Source of the DNA: Anaerolineaceae bacterium
Lineage (GTDB): Bacteria; Chloroflexota; Anaerolineae; Anaerolineales; Anaerolineaceae
Direction: 5' to 3'
Assembly: GCA_020845515.1 (NCBI GenBank)
Contig: JADLFQ010000097.1
Coordinates: forward strand, 1-64,000
Length of the DNA: 64,000 nt
The notes beneath the pieces are model-generated. The model ran no database searches and was not told the DNA's origin. It saw only the letters and a list, made by a program, of their open reading frames with translations. Position numbers and translations under genes: made by a program. Shown here piece after piece: positions 9,741-17,323 of this stretch. Numbering within the stretch: position 1 is the stretch's first letter; the number at the start of each line of letters is the position of its first letter.

Positions 9741-11906
9741 ATGACCCGGCCCTTCCTACGATACCTTTTGTTTGCAGGCTTTTTGCTTTTGGCTCTTTTT
9801 GCTCTTGCTGCTTGCAAGCCTGCGGCGCCTGTAGCGACAGAGACAGTGGCACAGCCAACAGCAGTATGCCCTGAACCGGCTGTCTGCCCTGATCTTAAGG
9901 CGGACGTACCCTTCTTTGAGGGCTGGCAAAATTCAGCGCATGCCCAAGCCGATTCACCCCCCTTTACCCATTGGAATGAGGAGAACCCTGCCGAGATTCC
10001 GACAACTTGCGCTAAATGCCATAGCTCTTATGGTTTTCTGGATTACGTCGGAGCAGATGGATCGGCGGCCGGTGTTGTGGATGCCGCAGCTAAGACTGGC
10101 TCGGTGATCACTTGTAACACGTGCCACAATGCGGCTACACAGGAATTGTCCACAGTGGTGTTCCCATCGGGCGCGGAAATTGGAGGCCTGGGTGGTGAAG
10201 CAGTGTGTATGACCTGTCACCAGGGCACTGCTTCGATGGTACAAGTGGATGAAGCCATTGCCAAATCCGGAGCGGCTGATGATGATACGATCGTGGACGA
10301 TCTTGGTTTCACCAACCTCCATTATTACGCTGCAGCAGTTTCTCGCTATGGCACGCTTGTCAAGGGCGGCTATGAATATAAAGGGAAACTGTATGATGCT
10401 TTGTGGGAACATGCCAAAGGCGTGGACACTTGTGTGGATTGCCACAATTCACACAGCCTGGAGATCAAGGTGGAAACCTGTGCGGCCTGCCACGAGGGCA
10501 TCAAGTCGGTAGAGGACGTCCGCGATATTCGCATGATCAGTTCAGCTTATGATTATGATGGCGATGAAGACGTTGAAGAGGGTATTGCCGGGGAGATTGA
10601 GGGCTTGCGCGGCTTACTGCTGGAAGCCATGCAGGCGTATGCTCAGGAAGTGGCGGGTTCACCGCTTGCGTATTCTACGGATATCTATCCCTATTTCTTC
10701 ACGGATACCAACGCTAATGGCCAGCTTGACGCGGATGAGGGTATATTCCCGAACAGTTTCAAATCCTGGACGCCCAGGCTGGGGAAAGCCGCCTATAATT
10801 ACCAAGCCTCTGTTAAGGACCCGGGTGCATATGTTCACGGCGGCAAGTACATTATTCAGCTTTTGTATGATTCAATCGAGAGCTTGAATGAAAAATTGGC
10901 CACTCCGGTTGACCTGAGCACGGCGCACAGGGATGACCCAGGTCATTTTGCGGGAGATACAGAACCATTCCGGCATTGGGATGAAGAGGGCATGGTTCCG
11001 GGAACCTGCGCCAAGTGCCATACCAGCGGAGGGTTACCCCAGTTTCTCGCGAATAATACAAATATCTCAATGCCTGTCTCTGATGGACTGTCATGCGAAA
11101 CCTGCCACAGCAACCTGCAAACGTTTGCAAGGCACGAATCCCCTGTGGTAACCTTCCCTTCTGGCGCTAAATTGAGTTTTGAGGATTCACCGGATGATAA
11201 CTTGTGCCTCAATTGTCATCAGGGGCAGCAGTCTGCTGTGAGTGTAGGCAGGCTGATTGCCGGGCTTGACCCAGATCAATCTGATGAAAAACTGCGCTTT
11301 TTAAACATACATTATTTTGCCGCTGGCGCGACATTGTTTGGTACAGAAGCAAAAGGCATGTATGAGTATCCCAACAAGAAATACGCAGGCGCTTTTTCCC
11401 ACCCTGCACCTCAAAATACTTGTTCTGGATGTCATGACGCGCATGCACTGGCGCCTGATGAGGCGGCCTGTATTGCCTGTCACCGGGTGGAAGAGCCTGA
11501 GCAAATCCGAATGAAATCCACCGGTGATTATGACGGTGACGGGAATGCTGAGGAAGGTTTGAAGGGTGAAGTGGATACGATGGCTGAGCAGCTCTATGCA
11601 GCTATGCAGACCTATGCACGGGATGCCCTGAAAGCTCCAATTGCCTATGATCCATATGCCTACCCATACTTCTTTGCCGACAGCAACGACAATGGCAAGG
11701 TGGATGCAGAAGAAATGAAACCGGACAATAGTTATAAAAATTGGACACCGCGGTTGGTAGCGGCTGCGTACAACTATCAATATGTACAAAAGGACCCCGG
11801 CGCGTATGTCCATAATGCGCCCTACATTCTGCAGGTATTGTATGATACCCTCGATGACCTTGGGAAGAAGGTACCGATAAATATGCAAGGCAAAGTGCGC
11901 CCGTAA
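9741..11906 (+). CDS. Ten-heme c-type cytochrome lipoprotein, tandem five-heme duplication
   Basis: This is a cell-surface electron carrier. The signal peptide ends in lipobox LAAC with Cys25 lipidated. Ten CxxCH heme sites begin at residues 90, 125, 156, 231, 247 and 423, 452, 489, 561, 577. The two groups of five have nearly the same spacing and similar flanks (CAKCH, CHQG, CxxCHxxH, CxACH), showing an internal duplication of about 330 residues. Each half also carries two acidic EF-hand-like loops (residues 271, 322, 596 and 647: DYDGDED, DTNANGQLD, DYDGDGN, DSNDNGKVD). Each half ends with a conserved NYQ...KDPGAYVHxxxYI element. AGGAG precedes the ATG. The electron partner and substrate are unknown; the next two genes are the likely membrane partners. 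Confidence 0.9.
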   Translation: MTRPFLRYLLFAGFLLLALFALAACKPAAPVATETVAQPTAVCPEPAVCPDLKADVPFFEGWQNSAHAQADSPPFTHWNEENPAEIPTTCAKCHSSYGFLDYVGADGSAAGVVDAAAKTGSVITCNTCHNAATQELSTVVFPSGAEIGGLGGEAVCMTCHQGTASMVQVDEAIAKSGAADDDTIVDDLGFTNLHYYAAAVSRYGTLVKGGYEYKGKLYDALWEHAKGVDTCVDCHNSHSLEIKVETCAACHEGIKSVEDVRDIRMISSAYDYDGDEDVEEGIAGEIEGLRGLLLEAMQAYAQEVAGSPLAYSTDIYPYFFTDTNANGQLDADEGIFPNSFKSWTPRLGKAAYNYQASVKDPGAYVHGGKYIIQLLYDSIESLNEKLATPVDLSTAHRDDPGHFAGDTEPFRHWDEEGMVPGTCAKCHTSGGLPQFLANNTNISMPVSDGLSCETCHSNLQTFARHESPVVTFPSGAKLSFEDSPDDNLCLNCHQGQQSAVSVGRLIAGLDPDQSDEKLRFLNIHYFAAGATLFGTEAKGMYEYPNKKYAGAFSHPAPQNTCSGCHDAHALAPDEAACIACHRVEEPEQIRMKSTGDYDGDGNAEEGLKGEVDTMAEQLYAAMQTYARDALKAPIAYDPYAYPYFFADSNDNGKVDAEEMKPDNSYKNWTPRLVAAAYNYQYVQKDPGAYVHNAPYILQVLYDTLDDLGKKVPINMQGKVRP

Positions 11907-11920
11907 GTTGTTTGAGTGTG

Positions 11921-11950
11921 ATCCCCCCGGGCAAACCGGGGGGATTTTTT
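11921..11950 (+). terminator. Intrinsic terminator after the ten-heme cytochrome
   Basis: A perfect 10-bp GC-rich stem (11921-11930 with 11936-11945), a five-base loop GCAAA and a T6 tract form a strong rho-independent terminator. It would make the ten-heme gene a separate transcript or reduce expression of the following genes. Confidence 0.9.
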
Positions 11951-12075
11951 GCATGAAAAGTTAAAGATGCTCGTTGCATTTTCTAATGTACAATTAATTT
12001 TTATAAATACTAATGTAAGATGAAAAATAGTCTCTTATTTCCCATGCAGACCTTTCATGGAGGAGATGGATTTGA

Positions 12076-13341
12076 ATGAGCGATAAAATAAAATTTTTAA
12101 AACCGGTGCTGATGGTGACTGCAGCCGCCACACTGGTGCTGACACTTTTATTCGTAGCTTCCCAGGTATTGCCAGCGGAAGGCATGAGATTGTTGCCGGA
12201 ACAAGATTTACAAACCGGCAACGCTGAATGCCTGCTGTGTCATGGCCAATCTGATCAAGTGGTGTCTTTTCCTAATGGAGACACAGTCTCTATTAGAGTG
12301 TCGCCTAGCGAATTTGGCAAGTCGGCGCATGGGTTGGAACTGATGGCATGCACAGATTGTCATACCAACATTCAGGGTTATCCACATCCAGAAGTTGTTG
12401 GCAAAAGCCAGAAGGGGTATAGTGCTTCTTATGTTGAGTTGTGCCAAGACTGCCATGAGGAGCAGGCCAGTCAACTCAGCGATAGTATTCATGGTCAGGT
12501 GCTGGCGGCAGGAAACGAGAATGCCCCGCTTTGCATGGACTGCCACGACCCTCATACGCAACAGCCTGTGCGGAACGCACAAGGCAACCTGACGCGCTCA
12601 GCGCGGCACGAGATTCCGAATACTTGCGCACGTTGCCACAGCCAGATCTTTGATCAATATGCTCTAAGTGTGCATGGGGTGGGCATTGTGGAAGAGAATA
12701 ACCCGGATGCACCAACCTGCACGGATTGTCATGGTGTGCATCAGATCACCGACCCTAAAAGTACGCACTTCCGGCTGCAATCCCCGGAATTGTGCGCAGA
12801 TTGCCATACAAATAAAGCAGTGATGGCGAAATACGGCCTTTCCACCGATGTGTTGAATACCTATGTAAGCGATTTTCACGGAACAACGGTGACCCTGTTT
12901 GAAAAGGTCACCCCTGATCAACCGACTAACACGGCGGTTTGTTTTGACTGTCATGGAGTGCATGATATCTCCAGGACGGATGACCCGGAGAAGGGCTTGC
13001 AAATAAAAGAAAACCTGTTGCTGACCTGCAAAAAATGTCATCCGGATGCGACTACTAATTTCCCCGATTCGTGGATGAGTCATTACATCCCCAGCAAGGA
13101 ACACTACCCCCTGGTTTATTATGTAAATCTCTTCTATAAATTTTTCATTCCCACAGTGCTGGGGGGCATGGCGATCTTCGTGGTAAGTGATTTTTCAAGA
13201 CGAATGATCGAACGGCGCAAGAAACCGGGGCAGGCTTCTGAGGAAGACGCGAGTGCATCACCGGCTGCGCCGGAGGCGCCAAAGGATGTTAAAGGTGAAG
13301 GAAAGGATGAAGATGCAAAACAGGAGGTGCAAGATGAGTAA
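12076..13341 (+). CDS. Nine-heme membrane-anchored c-type cytochrome
   Basis: A multiheme cytochrome with an uncleaved N-terminal anchor (about residues 10-31) and a second helix near residues 341-362, followed by a basic then acidic cytoplasmic tail. Nine CxxCH sites lie between residue 52 (CLLCH) and residue 318 (CKKCH). Several are of the CxDCHGVH or CMDCHDPH type, and SVHG/DFHG histidines nearby could be distal ligands, as in the doubled-CxxCH and NapC/NirT-like families. GGAGGAG lies nine bases before the start. Its end overlaps the cytochrome b start by eight bases, so the two are translationally coupled. It probably relays electrons between the membrane cytochrome b and outer carriers; direction is unknown. 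Confidence 0.88.
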   Translation: MSDKIKFLKPVLMVTAAATLVLTLLFVASQVLPAEGMRLLPEQDLQTGNAECLLCHGQSDQVVSFPNGDTVSIRVSPSEFGKSAHGLELMACTDCHTNIQGYPHPEVVGKSQKGYSASYVELCQDCHEEQASQLSDSIHGQVLAAGNENAPLCMDCHDPHTQQPVRNAQGNLTRSARHEIPNTCARCHSQIFDQYALSVHGVGIVEENNPDAPTCTDCHGVHQITDPKSTHFRLQSPELCADCHTNKAVMAKYGLSTDVLNTYVSDFHGTTVTLFEKVTPDQPTNTAVCFDCHGVHDISRTDDPEKGLQIKENLLLTCKKCHPDATTNFPDSWMSHYIPSKEHYPLVYYVNLFYKFFIPTVLGGMAIFVVSDFSRRMIERRKKPGQASEEDASASPAAPEAPKDVKGEGKDEDAKQEVQDE

Positions 13342-14377
13342 GAAGCCCAATACCTTCCTGCGCTTTGAAGTCATGCAGCGGATCGAACATATCCTGCTGA
13401 TTCTTTCATTCTCGACGCTGGGCCTGACGGGGTTGCCGCAGAAATTCCCCACTGCAGGTATCTCCCTTTTTATCGTGAGTCTGTTTGGCGGGATTGAAAT
13501 TGTGCGCGTCGTACACAGGGTTGCGGCGACTTTGTTTATGCTTGAGGCGATCTACCATCTTGTAGACGCGGGGTACCGGCTATATGTGCGTCGTCAGGCG
13601 GCCAGCATGCTGCCTGGTCCTGATGATGTTCGCGATGCGCTGAAGGCTTTTCTTTACAACCTGGGGATTGCCCGCAGCCGTCCTAAAATGGGACGCTTTA
13701 ATTTTGTGGAAAAAGCGGAATACTGGGCAGTTGTATGGGGATTACTCATTATGGCTGTGACCGGTTTTATGCTGTGGAATCCTGTTGCCACCTCGCTGGT
13801 CTTGCCCGGGCAAGCCATCCCGGCTGCCAAGGCGGCGCACGGCGCAGAAGCAATTTTGGCGGTGCTGGCAATCTTAATTTGGCACTTTTACCATGTCCAT
13901 TTGAAGAAGTTAAATCTGAGTATCTTCACCGGACGGGTTTCATTGGAAGAGATGGAAGAAGAGCACGCGGCTGAACTTGAGAAAATCTTGCAAGGGGAAC
14001 AACAGAAGGCCGTAGACGATGCGAAGTTGCGGAAGCGGAAGGCTATCTATCTCCCTATTGCTGCAGTTTTCTCGCTTGCTATGCTGTACGGAGTATACCG
14101 TTTTGTTACGTTAGAGCAAACTGCAATTACTACCATTCCACCGAAGGAGTCGCCGGTAGAAATTTTTGTACCACAAACCGCGACACCTGCTCCAAGCCCT
14201 ACTGCAAAAGCCGTTTCCAATGAGGCGCCGCTACAGGTTGTTTCTCAGCCTATGGACATTTCTATTATGGTGCTTACTGGTACATGGAGCGAAGGAATTG
14301 AGGGAATTGTGGCATCCTCTTGCAGCACGCGTGATGATGCCAGGAATGCGCTTGACCTGAACAACTCGTCAGGGTGA
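13334..14377 (+). CDS. Membrane cytochrome b subunit with truncated C-terminal extension
   Basis: A di-heme cytochrome b of the formate dehydrogenase gamma/thiosulfate reductase type, the quinone-side membrane subunit. Four helices carry histidines suited to bis-His heme binding: RIEHILLILSF, VRVVHRVAATLF...IYHLV, and KAAHGAEAILAVLAILIWHFYHVH. A fifth helix (near residue 245) precedes a Pro/Thr-rich linker (TPAPSPTA) and a short tail. The ATG at 13334 has an ideal AGGAGGTG and overlaps the previous gene by eight bases. The tail enters what resembles a planctomycete-type cytochrome c domain (ASSCST...LDLNN) but the CxxCH is missing and a TGA follows. The next entry holds the rest. Confidence 0.87.
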   Translation: MSKKPNTFLRFEVMQRIEHILLILSFSTLGLTGLPQKFPTAGISLFIVSLFGGIEIVRVVHRVAATLFMLEAIYHLVDAGYRLYVRRQAASMLPGPDDVRDALKAFLYNLGIARSRPKMGRFNFVEKAEYWAVVWGLLIMAVTGFMLWNPVATSLVLPGQAIPAAKAAHGAEAILAVLAILIWHFYHVHLKKLNLSIFTGRVSLEEMEEEHAAELEKILQGEQQKAVDDAKLRKRKAIYLPIAAVFSLAMLYGVYRFVTLEQTAITTIPPKESPVEIFVPQTATPAPSPTAKAVSNEAPLQVVSQPMDISIMVLTGTWSEGIEGIVASSCSTRDDARNALDLNNSSG

Positions 14378-14532
14378 TGCTGTGTAAACGGTGTGGTGGT
14401 TACAGGCGATTCAGGCGACTGCTTGCTGCAGATAAAGGTTGCAACGAAAAGTACTACGGAGAATGTACTCAGGAACAACTGGCGTTGATTGAGGCATGGA
14501 TACTGATTGACGCGCCGGAAAAAGCTCCATAA
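14378..14532 (+). pseudogene. Remnant of a C-terminal cytochrome c domain
   Basis: After the TGA that ends the cytochrome b gene, the same frame continues with CVNGVVVTGDSGDCLLQI. A frameshift later the +2 frame reads TQEQLALIEAWILIDAPEKA and then stops at 14530-14532. These two pieces match the conserved end of small cytochrome c domains (GVNG-VVxPGDPxxSLL ... LTPEELxLIxAWIxxGAPE). Together with the missing CH of the heme site at about 14322-14330 (CSTRDDA where CSTCHGDDA would be expected), they show that the gene once continued to 14532. At least three lesions are present: a small deletion, a stop codon and a frameshift. Confidence 0.75.
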
Positions 14533-14597: not shown

Positions 14598-15092
14598 ATG
14601 GCGTAAAGTGAACATAAGAAGCAATTTTTGAGGCAAGATTTCTATTGTATAATCTTAATAATTCGATTGACGCACTACTTGCAGTAGATTTGGGTATTTG
14701 CTCGCATACCACTCTGTTCTGACATAAGTGAATACCCTTTATACACAACCACGATCGTTGTGCTTGTGAGCTTACCCTTACCGGCAATATCGCATGGGTC
14801 GGAAGAACCCTTGAACTTTTTAGCTGGATTAAAAAAATATAATTGCTCATTGATTCCCCGACTGTCATTCTTGGCGCCAGTACTTTAGCTTTGCGGATGT
14901 TTCCGGTTGACCAATGGTGGTTACACTGGCAGGGGAACTGACGGTGGTATGTACAGTCACTTAGTCTGGTTTGAGAGTGTTTCCAAGAAACATGCTGGCG
15001 ACATCGGGCCTGAGGTCACTTCCAGCCCTTCCGATTCAATGCACGTGAACCCCGGAAATTTGTATTGCTTTGAACCTATGGAGGAAAAAAGA
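14598..15092 (+). other. Long untranslated leader before the dehydrogenase-like gene
   Basis: A perfect TATAAT at 14648-14653 implies a transcript whose 5' leader would be about 430 bases. It contains short hairpins (for example CTACT/AGTAG at about 14676-14690 and GGTAT/ATACC at about 14693-14711). No known riboswitch core could be recognised. The frame of the next gene is open back to 14907, but that part lacks any conserved feature, and the strong GGAGGA at 15080 fixes the true start downstream. Confidence 0.4.
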
Positions 15093-16202
15093 ATGGCGAA
15101 ACTGTTGACGGTTGGTTTTCCACACATGGAGAAAGAAACCGGAGAGCGACGAGCTTTTCTGCCGGCCTTTGTTCAAAAGATTGCCCGGTATGCAGAGGTA
15201 TACCTTGCAGAGGGTTATGGCAGCCGGATGGGTTTTTCGTTTGACGATTACTGCCAGGGTAATCAGCGCATTCACAAAGTAGAGCGAGAGGAGGCGTTTG
15301 GAAAAGATGTCATCATCATTTTGCGGGCGCCGAACGAACATGAATACAAATGGTTGCGCCCGGGAAGCTGCCTGGTTTCGATGCTGCATTATGCAACACG
15401 GCCGGCGCGTGTGCAAAGATTGCGAGCCGGCGGGATTAATGCGATTTCATTGGATAGCATTATTGATGATTACAACCTGCGTTTGGTGGAGAGTATGCGC
15501 GCGGTGGCGTGGAATGGACTGGAAGTTGCCTTCAGTGTGTTGGAGAAAAGGTGGCCAGGGTTTATACGCGATTCTGATGAGCCTTACAACGTTGTTGTGC
15601 TGGGAACGGGGATGGTCGGCAAACATGCGGTTGAGGCTGGCACCAAGCTCGGGAATGTGGAATGGAATTCCAAGTACATGTCACGAAAGGGTTCGGGCGC
15701 GATGGTAATCAGTGTGGGAAGGAATCTCTCCGGGAACGCGAGGCAAATGCAGAAGATATTTCATAATGCGGATATTCTGGTGGATGCCACACAGCGGTCT
15801 GATCCGTCAAAAGTGATTATCCCTAATGAATGGATTAGCTGGTTGCCGGAGCATTGCGTGATTGCTGATCTGGCGGTTGACCCTTACTTGCTTGACCATA
15901 AACCGCCAGTTGTGCGCAGTGTTGAAGGCATCCCGCAGGGAGATTTAAATAAGTACATATTTTTCCCGGATGACCAGGATTGGAATGCAACCATTCCGCC
16001 GGAAATCCCCACAACCCATCGAAGGGCGACGGTTTCGTGCTATTCCTGGCCTGGAGTGCACCCGGAAGCCTGTATGGAGCACTACGGGCGGCAGTTGGAC
16101 CCCATGATCGAGACGCTGCTCACCCGTCCTTACCAGGACTTGAGCTTGTCGAGCAATTATTTCGAGCGGGCGTTGGCGAGGGCGAAACTTCCGGAAAACT
16201 AG
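15093..16202 (+). CDS. Alanine dehydrogenase/PNT-family NAD(P)-dependent oxidoreductase, paralog A
   Basis: A cytoplasmic dehydrogenase-like protein of the alanine dehydrogenase/pyridine nucleotide transhydrogenase alpha-subunit fold (369 aa). The N-terminal part has the substrate-side ERRAFLPAFV and PGSCLVSMLHY (the His of alanine dehydrogenase) segments. The nucleotide-binding motif VVLGTGMVGKHAV lies near residue 165, and NADILVDATQRSDPSK follows. Where alanine dehydrogenases have Lys in a VKVKEP motif, this protein has LRAP. The start at ATG 15093 is chosen because GGAGGA sits seven bases upstream. Its stop overlaps that of a convergent paralog. The true substrate is unknown; alanine, lysine or a related amino acid are possible. 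Confidence 0.75.
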   Translation: MAKLLTVGFPHMEKETGERRAFLPAFVQKIARYAEVYLAEGYGSRMGFSFDDYCQGNQRIHKVEREEAFGKDVIIILRAPNEHEYKWLRPGSCLVSMLHYATRPARVQRLRAGGINAISLDSIIDDYNLRLVESMRAVAWNGLEVAFSVLEKRWPGFIRDSDEPYNVVVLGTGMVGKHAVEAGTKLGNVEWNSKYMSRKGSGAMVISVGRNLSGNARQMQKIFHNADILVDATQRSDPSKVIIPNEWISWLPEHCVIADLAVDPYLLDHKPPVVRSVEGIPQGDLNKYIFFPDDQDWNATIPPEIPTTHRRATVSCYSWPGVHPEACMEHYGRQLDPMIETLLTRPYQDLSLSSNYFERALARAKLPEN

Positions 16203-17323
16203 CTTACCCAGCGAGAGAGCAAAGCGCGTGAAAGTGCTCGGTGAAAAAAATTTCCTTTGTGGTTGAGGATTTTGACTCCGCCGTTTGACAGGATGGTGTT
16301 AAAAACCGGTTTAAGCTGCATGCCGTAGACTTCCATGCACTCCAGCGGTTTAATGCCCGGCCAGGAATAACATGAAACAGCATAGCGCCGGTGTACGGCG
16401 TTGACCCAGGAGGGGATGGCGTTGTAAGCTGGATCGTGCGGTTCGAAGACATATTGGTCGAGATTGCCCTGTGGGATGCCTTCAATCCCCTTGGCGGAAC
16501 GAATGTTTCCGAGGCTCCCATCATACGGGTCTACTGAAAGATCGAGCAGGACGGCATGGGGGCGCATCAAGGCGATCCATTCATTCGGGATGACAGGCTT
16601 GCTTGGATCTGGTCTTTGGGTGGCATCTACCAGGATGTCGGTGTATTTGAGGATTTGGGTCATTACTTCAGTGTGGTTGGTAAGGTCATACTCCACTACG
16701 GTAACCTGGACGCCGGTTACCTCTTTGGCAGCCAGGGTTTTCCAGTAATCCACATTGCCATAGCGAACAGCTGCCTGGATGGCATACCCGCCGACAGCGC
16801 CTGCGCCCATTACCGTCACCTTAATGGGGAAACGGGCAGGGTCTTCAATGCCCGGCGGGGGGTAATGCCCGCGCAGCGTTTGAAAGGCAATATCAACCCC
16901 GTTCCAGGCGACAGCGCGCAGGTTCTCCACCAGCCGTTTGCCGAGGTCGTCTTTGATCGAATCGAGAGAAATGGCTTCTATGCCCCGAGAACGCAGAAAA
17001 TCCACCCGCAGCGGCCGGGTGGGATAATGCAGCATCGAAACCAGGCAGCTTCCGGGACGCATGCGGCGGATGGGTTCATCGCCGGGATAACGCAAGACCA
17101 GGACGATATCCTGCTGGTAGGTTTCCTCCATGGAAGCGAATTTAAGCGAGGGGTATTTCACGGGATAGTCGGATTCTTTCAAGCCCATGCCCGAACCGTA
17201 GCCATGTTCCAGAACGACCTGGGCATTGTGTAAGAGCAGATCAAGAACAAAGGCAGGAAGGAAGTCGCGCTTTTCCCCTTCCTCAAGGTGCATACGAGGC
17301 ATTCCGATTGTGATGGGTCTCAT
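16199..17323 (-). CDS. Alanine dehydrogenase/PNT-family NAD(P)-dependent oxidoreductase, paralog B
   Basis: A 374-aa paralog of the neighbouring plus-strand gene, matching it along its full length: EKRDFLPAFV, RPGSCLVSMLHYPTRP, IEAISLDSI, VAWNG, ILVDATQRPDPSKPVIPNEWI, and SCYSWPG near the end. The Rossmann motif is VMGAGAVGGYAI. As in paralog A, LRYP stands where alanine dehydrogenase has the catalytic Lys. GGAG precedes the ATG at the right distance, and a TATAAT on the minus strand (17380-17385) could be its promoter. The two genes converge tail to tail and share the palindrome CTAG as both stop codons. Function is inferred only from the fold. Confidence 0.75.
   Translation of the reverse strand: MRPITIGMPRMHLEEGEKRDFLPAFVLDLLLHNAQVVLEHGYGSGMGLKESDYPVKYPSLKFASMEETYQQDIVLVLRYPGDEPIRRMRPGSCLVSMLHYPTRPLRVDFLRSRGIEAISLDSIKDDLGKRLVENLRAVAWNGVDIAFQTLRGHYPPPGIEDPARFPIKVTVMGAGAVGGYAIQAAVRYGNVDYWKTLAAKEVTGVQVTVVEYDLTNHTEVMTQILKYTDILVDATQRPDPSKPVIPNEWIALMRPHAVLLDLSVDPYDGSLGNIRSAKGIEGIPQGNLDQYVFEPHDPAYNAIPSWVNAVHRRYAVSCYSWPGIKPLECMEVYGMQLKPVFNTILSNGGVKILNHKGNFFHRALSRALLSRWVS

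Follow-up and report, generated by a model that had tools for sequence, protein, structure and literature searches.

Among described systems, the proteins closest to the membrane part of the locus reported here are CbcL, MtoC and MtrH. CbcL of Geobacter sulfurreducens carries nine bis-His c hemes together with a di-heme, FdnI-like membrane part and is required for extracellular electron transfer at low potential; a role in extracellular electron transfer through oxidation of quinol has been proposed for all three proteins (PMC9129911, PMC6295460). None of their carriers given in PMC6295460 is from the Chloroflexi, and the same source names Anaerolinea thermophila as a carrier of a one-TM ImcH. 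On the surface side, OcwA of Thermincola potens and OmhA of Carboxydothermus ferrireducens are exposed on single-membrane cells and are implicated in extracellular electron transfer (PMC6703420, PMC7829351). OcwA has two open (penta-coordinated) hemes with His-His distal pockets and reduces nitrite slowly (PMC6703420). Within the Chloroflexota, the isolate Ardenticatena maritima performs anodic as well as cathodic electron transfer and has a surface heme protein; since no protein of this organism is reported to have more than seven heme motifs (PMC5808234), it does not use the ten-heme protein described below. Large multiheme cytochromes without porins have been reported from Anaerolineales (PMC7399161). 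We hold, with moderate confidence, that the present locus is best explained as a route from quinol through a cytochrome b and a nine-heme relay to a surface ten-heme protein and an extracellular acceptor. A first-pass annotation of the same DNA had likewise suggested a quinone-linked module with a surface multiheme protein at its outer end, and this is retained as the best reading.

The window, that is, the whole 64,000-nucleotide stretch of Anaerolineaceae DNA that was analysed, belongs to an assembly of 2.95 Mb that is 85% complete. It contains 26 CXXCH-coding patterns, compared with 4.75 +/- 2.4 in shuffled sequences (0/100 shuffles reached 26), and 19 of the 26 lie in frame within two genes on the forward (+) strand, as do all features described here. 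The first gene (9741..11906) encodes a lipoprotein of 721 amino acids with 10 CXXCH motifs, arranged as a tandem of two pentaheme modules, and the lipobox LAAC. The second (12076..13341) encodes a nine-heme protein of 421 amino acids with nine CXXCH motifs, N- and C-terminal transmembrane helices and nine conserved non-motif His. Next to it, a third gene (13334..14377) encodes an FdnI/Ni_hydr_CYTB-like cytochrome b of 347 amino acids, in which H19, H61, H75, H169 and H184 are candidate ligands of the b hemes. Motif counts, the lipobox, the helices and the FdnI-like match bear out the annotated succession of ten-heme lipoprotein, nine-heme anchor and cytochrome b at this place. The overlap of eight bases that had been noted between the 3' end of the nine-heme gene and the start of the cytochrome b gene is also present (13334-13341). 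The end assigned to the module, 14532, has to be corrected: the cytochrome b frame stops at 14377, and 14532 is the position of an ancestral stop.

Between the ten-heme and nine-heme genes lies an intrinsic-terminator-like hairpin (11920..11946) of 11 pairs, 8 of them G-C, followed by a T-rich tail. This strong hairpin separates the ten-heme gene from the nine-heme and cytochrome b genes, and it is therefore probably a transcription unit apart from them. From translations read by eye, we take the upstream flank to hold 6-phosphogluconate and glucose-6-phosphate dehydrogenase-like genes and the downstream flank two alanine-dehydrogenase-like genes. Consistent with the first-pass annotation, the flanking genes, as read by eye, include neither a molybdenum nor a sulfur reductase gene adjoining the locus, and no NrfH-like gene is adjacent to the ten-heme gene. 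Genes for cytochrome c assembly are present in the same genome.

The ten-heme protein begins with a signal peptide and lipobox, in which C25 is nearly invariant. Its halves are 42% identical (E 6e-85). Each contains five CXXCH motifs and six conserved His outside them, namely H67, H77, H194, H224, H238 and H366 in module 1 (9888..10898) and H402, H412, H524, H554, H568 and H691 in module 2 (10899..11903), and EF-hand-like acidic loops (DYDGDG and DxNxNGxxDxxE) are repeated in both. When the modules were placed in a tree, the first halves grouped apart from the second halves, with 2 label changes each versus 23 in shuffles, which points to a single duplication before the protein spread. Judged by these comparisons of sequence, the ten-heme protein arose long ago when a pentaheme module was duplicated in tandem; in one MAG (L168), the two halves are encoded as two genes. 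The protein occurs in Chloroflexota and in MAGs labelled Actinomycetota, Trueperaceae, Planctomycetota and Myxococcales, labels that may be wrong, and close named relatives, at 61-63% identity, are from Anaerolineaceae MAGs of Thermanaerothrix, Levilinea and Bellilinea. It gave no sequence match to any characterised protein, including the close homology to a characterised soluble enzyme that the annotation had weighed against its own proposal, and single-sequence and profile searches of solved structures returned chance-level matches only. Kinship with MtrC/OmcA was considered but not adopted, as no MtrC-family Pfam entry matched the ten-heme protein at E 0.1.

An AlphaFold2 model of the ten-heme protein, a prediction without heme, was built with 66 locus sequences and reached a pLDDT of 90.7. 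Its first-ranked Foldseek match was OcwA, at a weak E of 0.02. A second aligner matched the model with NrfA (Z 12.1, rmsd 4.3, 258 aligned), OcwA (Z 12.1, rmsd 3.5, 219 aligned, 22% identity), the undecaheme protein 6qvm of the Carboxydothermus ferrireducens S-layer (Z 11.2, rmsd 3.7, 232 aligned) and other nitrite reductases (Z 10-11); Z values below about 13 may be coincidental for helical proteins, and here every top match is to a multiheme protein from a single fold group, most of these matches resting on module 1. The modules are predicted to adopt an NrfA/OcwA-like pentaheme fold with C-terminal helices, a similarity that does not in itself show function. Like OcwA and OmhA, the ten-heme protein would be a surface multiheme protein of a single-membrane cell with an NrfA-like heme domain and C-terminal helices (Z 11-12). 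OcwA, however, is a nine-heme fusion of c554-like and NrfA-like parts and OmhA has 11 hemes, whereas the present protein repeats a pentaheme module in tandem, is lipid-anchored, has EF-hand-like loops and shows no detectable sequence homology to either.

The likeness to NrfA lies in the five hemes of each module, the predicted fold and the order of motifs. Compared by eye, the order CxxC[H/K]-CxxCH-CxxCH-H-H-CxxCH-H-CxxCH-H is common to the modules and Escherichia coli NrfA, and the second lone His precedes heme 4 by 7 residues in both. When the modules were compared with NrfA by profile-profile alignment, the outcome was misaligned and non-significant, so that the correspondence relies on the predicted fold and the motif order read by eye. 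By that order, the proximal Lys of NrfA is replaced by His (all ten motifs are CXXCH, with no CXXCK), NxHY stands where NrfA has KAQH, and the Arg after heme 1 and Tyr after heme 3 are without evident counterpart. As the Lys, Arg and Tyr of NrfA are not kept, the ten-heme protein is not an NrfA-family nitrite reductase, from which it also differs in its fused pair of modules and in the lack of an NrfH-like neighbour.

The predicted fold, the retained motif order with its spacing of 7 residues before heme 4, and the slow nitrite reduction by OcwA (PMC6703420) do lend something to a different reading, according to which the ten-heme protein is itself the terminal reductase of a soluble small molecule. 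Heme 1 (CAKCH) of each module would then be open, with its distal His in the invariant NxHY motif, similar to the His-His pockets of OcwA, and the nine-heme protein and cytochrome b would only feed it. We consider this unlikely, given the His in place of the NrfA Lys, the missing Arg and Tyr counterparts and the six conserved His per module, which suffice for bis-His coordination at every heme.

For export to an extracellular acceptor, the nine-heme protein and cytochrome b would form the membrane feeder. Hydrophobic helices of the nine-heme protein span amino acids 5-37 and 352-374 (4-28 and 345-382 in its model). Its nine conserved extra His are enough, with the nine CXXCH motifs, for bis-His ligation throughout, and we infer that all its hemes are so ligated. 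In the MtrC-family search, PF22113 matched this protein with 52.7 bits (cut-off 30). Fold matches of its model, to hydroxylamine oxidoreductase at Z about 7, were not used because the model is poor (pLDDT 73). The cytochrome b matched Ni_hydr_CYTB with 45.3 bits (cut-off 30.1) and TIGR01583 with 56 bits, the latter below the cut-off of that model. In a sample of 301 genomes of the phylum, the nine-heme protein is present in 26, all 26 of which also have the cytochrome b, with adjoining coordinates in nearly all. Furthermore, a Phycisphaerae MAG that carries the ten-heme gene (L165) has the pair fused in the same order into one protein of 971 amino acids, with a nine-heme-like part (E 5e-14) and a cytochrome-b-like part (E 6e-36).

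This arrangement recalls CbcL, MtoC and MtrH, with nine c hemes, apparently bis-His, and an FdnI/HydC-like di-heme membrane cytochrome b, a likeness drawn from published descriptions rather than from the sequence of CbcL. We read the two proteins as a putative split CbcL-like quinol dehydrogenase and a near-inseparable pair, because their genes adjoin, are fused in L165, and CbcL is such a fusion. The pair is not filed as CbcL itself, since CbcL is a single polypeptide whereas here there are two overlapping genes; the nine-heme protein also differs in having a membrane helix at both ends. The partner of CbcL is the periplasmic PpcA, while the likely partner here is a surface lipoprotein.

The gene set, whose conservation in relatives had been left as a check in the first-pass annotation, is indeed conserved. 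Within the family, the pair accompanies the ten-heme gene in 35 of 36 genomes and, among the 111 others, occurs in one clear case, where a different nine-heme protein fills the ten-heme slot; p-values calculated for the co-occurrence ignore shared descent. In the phylum sample the pair occurs in 15 of 17 ten-heme genomes and in 11 without a ten-heme gene. The 11 genomes suggest that the pair predates its partnership with the ten-heme protein or is more widespread than that partnership. In many relatives, an ImcH-like 8-heme gene lies between the ten-heme and nine-heme genes. Its product resembles ImcH in having one CX3CH and seven CX2CH motifs, and the diagnostic CX3CH is found in 38 of 42 such neighbours. 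The window's own genome differs in that its assembly, 85% complete, yielded no ImcH-like gene. Other neighbours in relatives, read by eye, are presumably bc/Rieske-, NrfD/FeS- and Ccm-like genes.

In the proposed export route, cytochrome b would take electrons from membrane menaquinol and move them across its two b hemes to the nine-heme protein, an all-bis-histidine relay held at the outer face by two membrane helices. The relay would pass them, perhaps within a complex, to the lipid-anchored ten-heme protein outside the (probably single) membrane, and this protein, if exposed at the surface, would deliver them to an extracellular acceptor such as an Fe(III)/Mn(IV) mineral, a humic substance, a shuttle or a partner cell. 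In many relatives, the ImcH-like 8-heme protein and a one-heme tail of cytochrome b may serve as further relays. The hairpin at 11920-11946 suggests that the outlet is expressed on its own, and the cell could then adjust outlet and feeder independently. The reading is based on gene anatomy, duplication, predicted fold, co-inheritance, adjacency of the pair and its natural fusion, and the sequences suggest a conserved and probably functional electron-export system of Anaerolineae. Counted against it are 27 of 80 named ten-heme loci with neither the pair nor an ImcH-like gene in the fetched flank (many of these contigs are short), the probable separate termination of the ten-heme gene and the loss of a heme domain from cytochrome b.

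Genomes of the family that have only a single pentaheme protein are without the pair. At all 8 loci that were fetched, the single pentaheme gene adjoins a flavocytochrome of one family, of which the member examined has Ferric_reduct, FAD and NAD domains. As the pentaheme form adjoins this ferric-reductase-like flavocytochrome and the ten-heme form goes with the pair, one surface module appears to have two different membrane feeders. Tentatively, this may be extended to a modular electron outlet of single-membrane Chloroflexota, in which an NrfA-fold pentaheme module would act as surface terminal reductase, either singly or as a covalently joined tandem containing two substrate-binding hemes, and would be fed by a quinol-oxidising split CbcL in the ten-heme form or an NAD(P)H-oxidising ferric-reductase-like flavocytochrome in the five-heme form. 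Such alternative feeders would show the assembly of chains from exchangeable parts. The same neighbours bear on whether electrons could flow inwards, from minerals, Fe(II) or a partner cell through the ten-heme protein to the quinone pool, in uptake or interspecies exchange. Cathodic uptake by A. maritima (PMC5808234) is in keeping with inward flow, but the NAD(P)H-type flavocytochromes suggest outflow, and the ImcH-like partners of relatives have so far been tied to quinol oxidation only (PMC6295460); we regard it as quite improbable.

The first-pass annotation had ranked the locus as a candidate for an undescribed system. No earlier description of the gene set in Anaerolineae was found in the open-licence papers searched, and the combination may be new for this class. 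It is not a wholly undescribed kind, because its parts are variants of known ones: the pair resembles a split CbcL, and for the modules a fold like that of NrfA and OcwA is predicted. Little is known of electron disposal in Anaerolineae, which abound in anoxic sediments and digesters. A conserved, porin-free route from quinone to surface would offer a genetic marker by which extracellular electron transfer could be tested for in this class.

In 23 of 24 same-family relatives, the cytochrome b carries a one-heme C-terminal domain (CxxCH) with a conserved end. In the window, the corresponding region (14306..14532) is decayed: CSTRD (14321-14335) replaces CxxCH, a stop follows (14375-14377), and a remnant of the conserved tail can be read, after frameshifts, in a different frame as far as the ancestral stop (14530-14532). 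That there are several lesions speaks for genuine decay and against a single sequencing error. The first-pass annotation had missed that a c-heme domain still present in most close relatives is lost here. In the sister genome (G034, locus L052), the domain is intact, with CSMCH. Loss of the tail need not be fatal, as the cytochrome b of 15 of 31 more distant relatives is without c hemes. That the system is degenerating into an idle remnant in its own genome, as the decayed 3' end with its several lesions and the ImcH-like gene not found might indicate, is very improbable, since the assembly is only 85% complete, cytochromes b without c hemes are common in distant relatives, and none of the 19 CXXCH motifs or the b-heme His has been lost, the other parts having unbroken reading frames and 70-78% identity to the sister genome.

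Several loci fetched from other genomes carry the ten-heme gene in other surroundings. At four of them (L141, L144, L152 and L167), genes judged by reading to be of the bc/Rieske type lie near it, one of which encodes a protein with seven CXXCH motifs, likewise by reading. These genes possibly represent a third quinol-oxidising feeder. L107, L105, L112, L146 and L164 come from Chloroflexota MAGs of Caldilineaceae, Promineifilum and reactor type; here the ten-heme gene lies within larger clusters, which contain the nine-heme or the ImcH-like protein in 12- to 15-heme versions as well as additional 7- to 10-heme proteins. L168:4014-6190 contains two separate pentaheme genes side by side, each corresponding to one half of the ten-heme protein.

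One member genome of the family contains a single frame of 1203 aa (L084:4271-7882, minus strand) that joins a chemoreceptor (4HB_MCP, HAMP and MCPsignal, with three CXXCH within the sensor part) to an extra transmembrane helix and a complete pentaheme module of the ten-heme protein's module family. This frame is possibly a redox-sensing chemoreceptor, or else possibly an assembly artefact.

Two mutually related, convergent alanine-dehydrogenase-like genes adjoin the multiheme system in the window (14907-16202, plus strand; 16199-17323, minus strand), and the sister genome has the same pair beside its copy of the system (L052:11844-12953 and 12950-14113).
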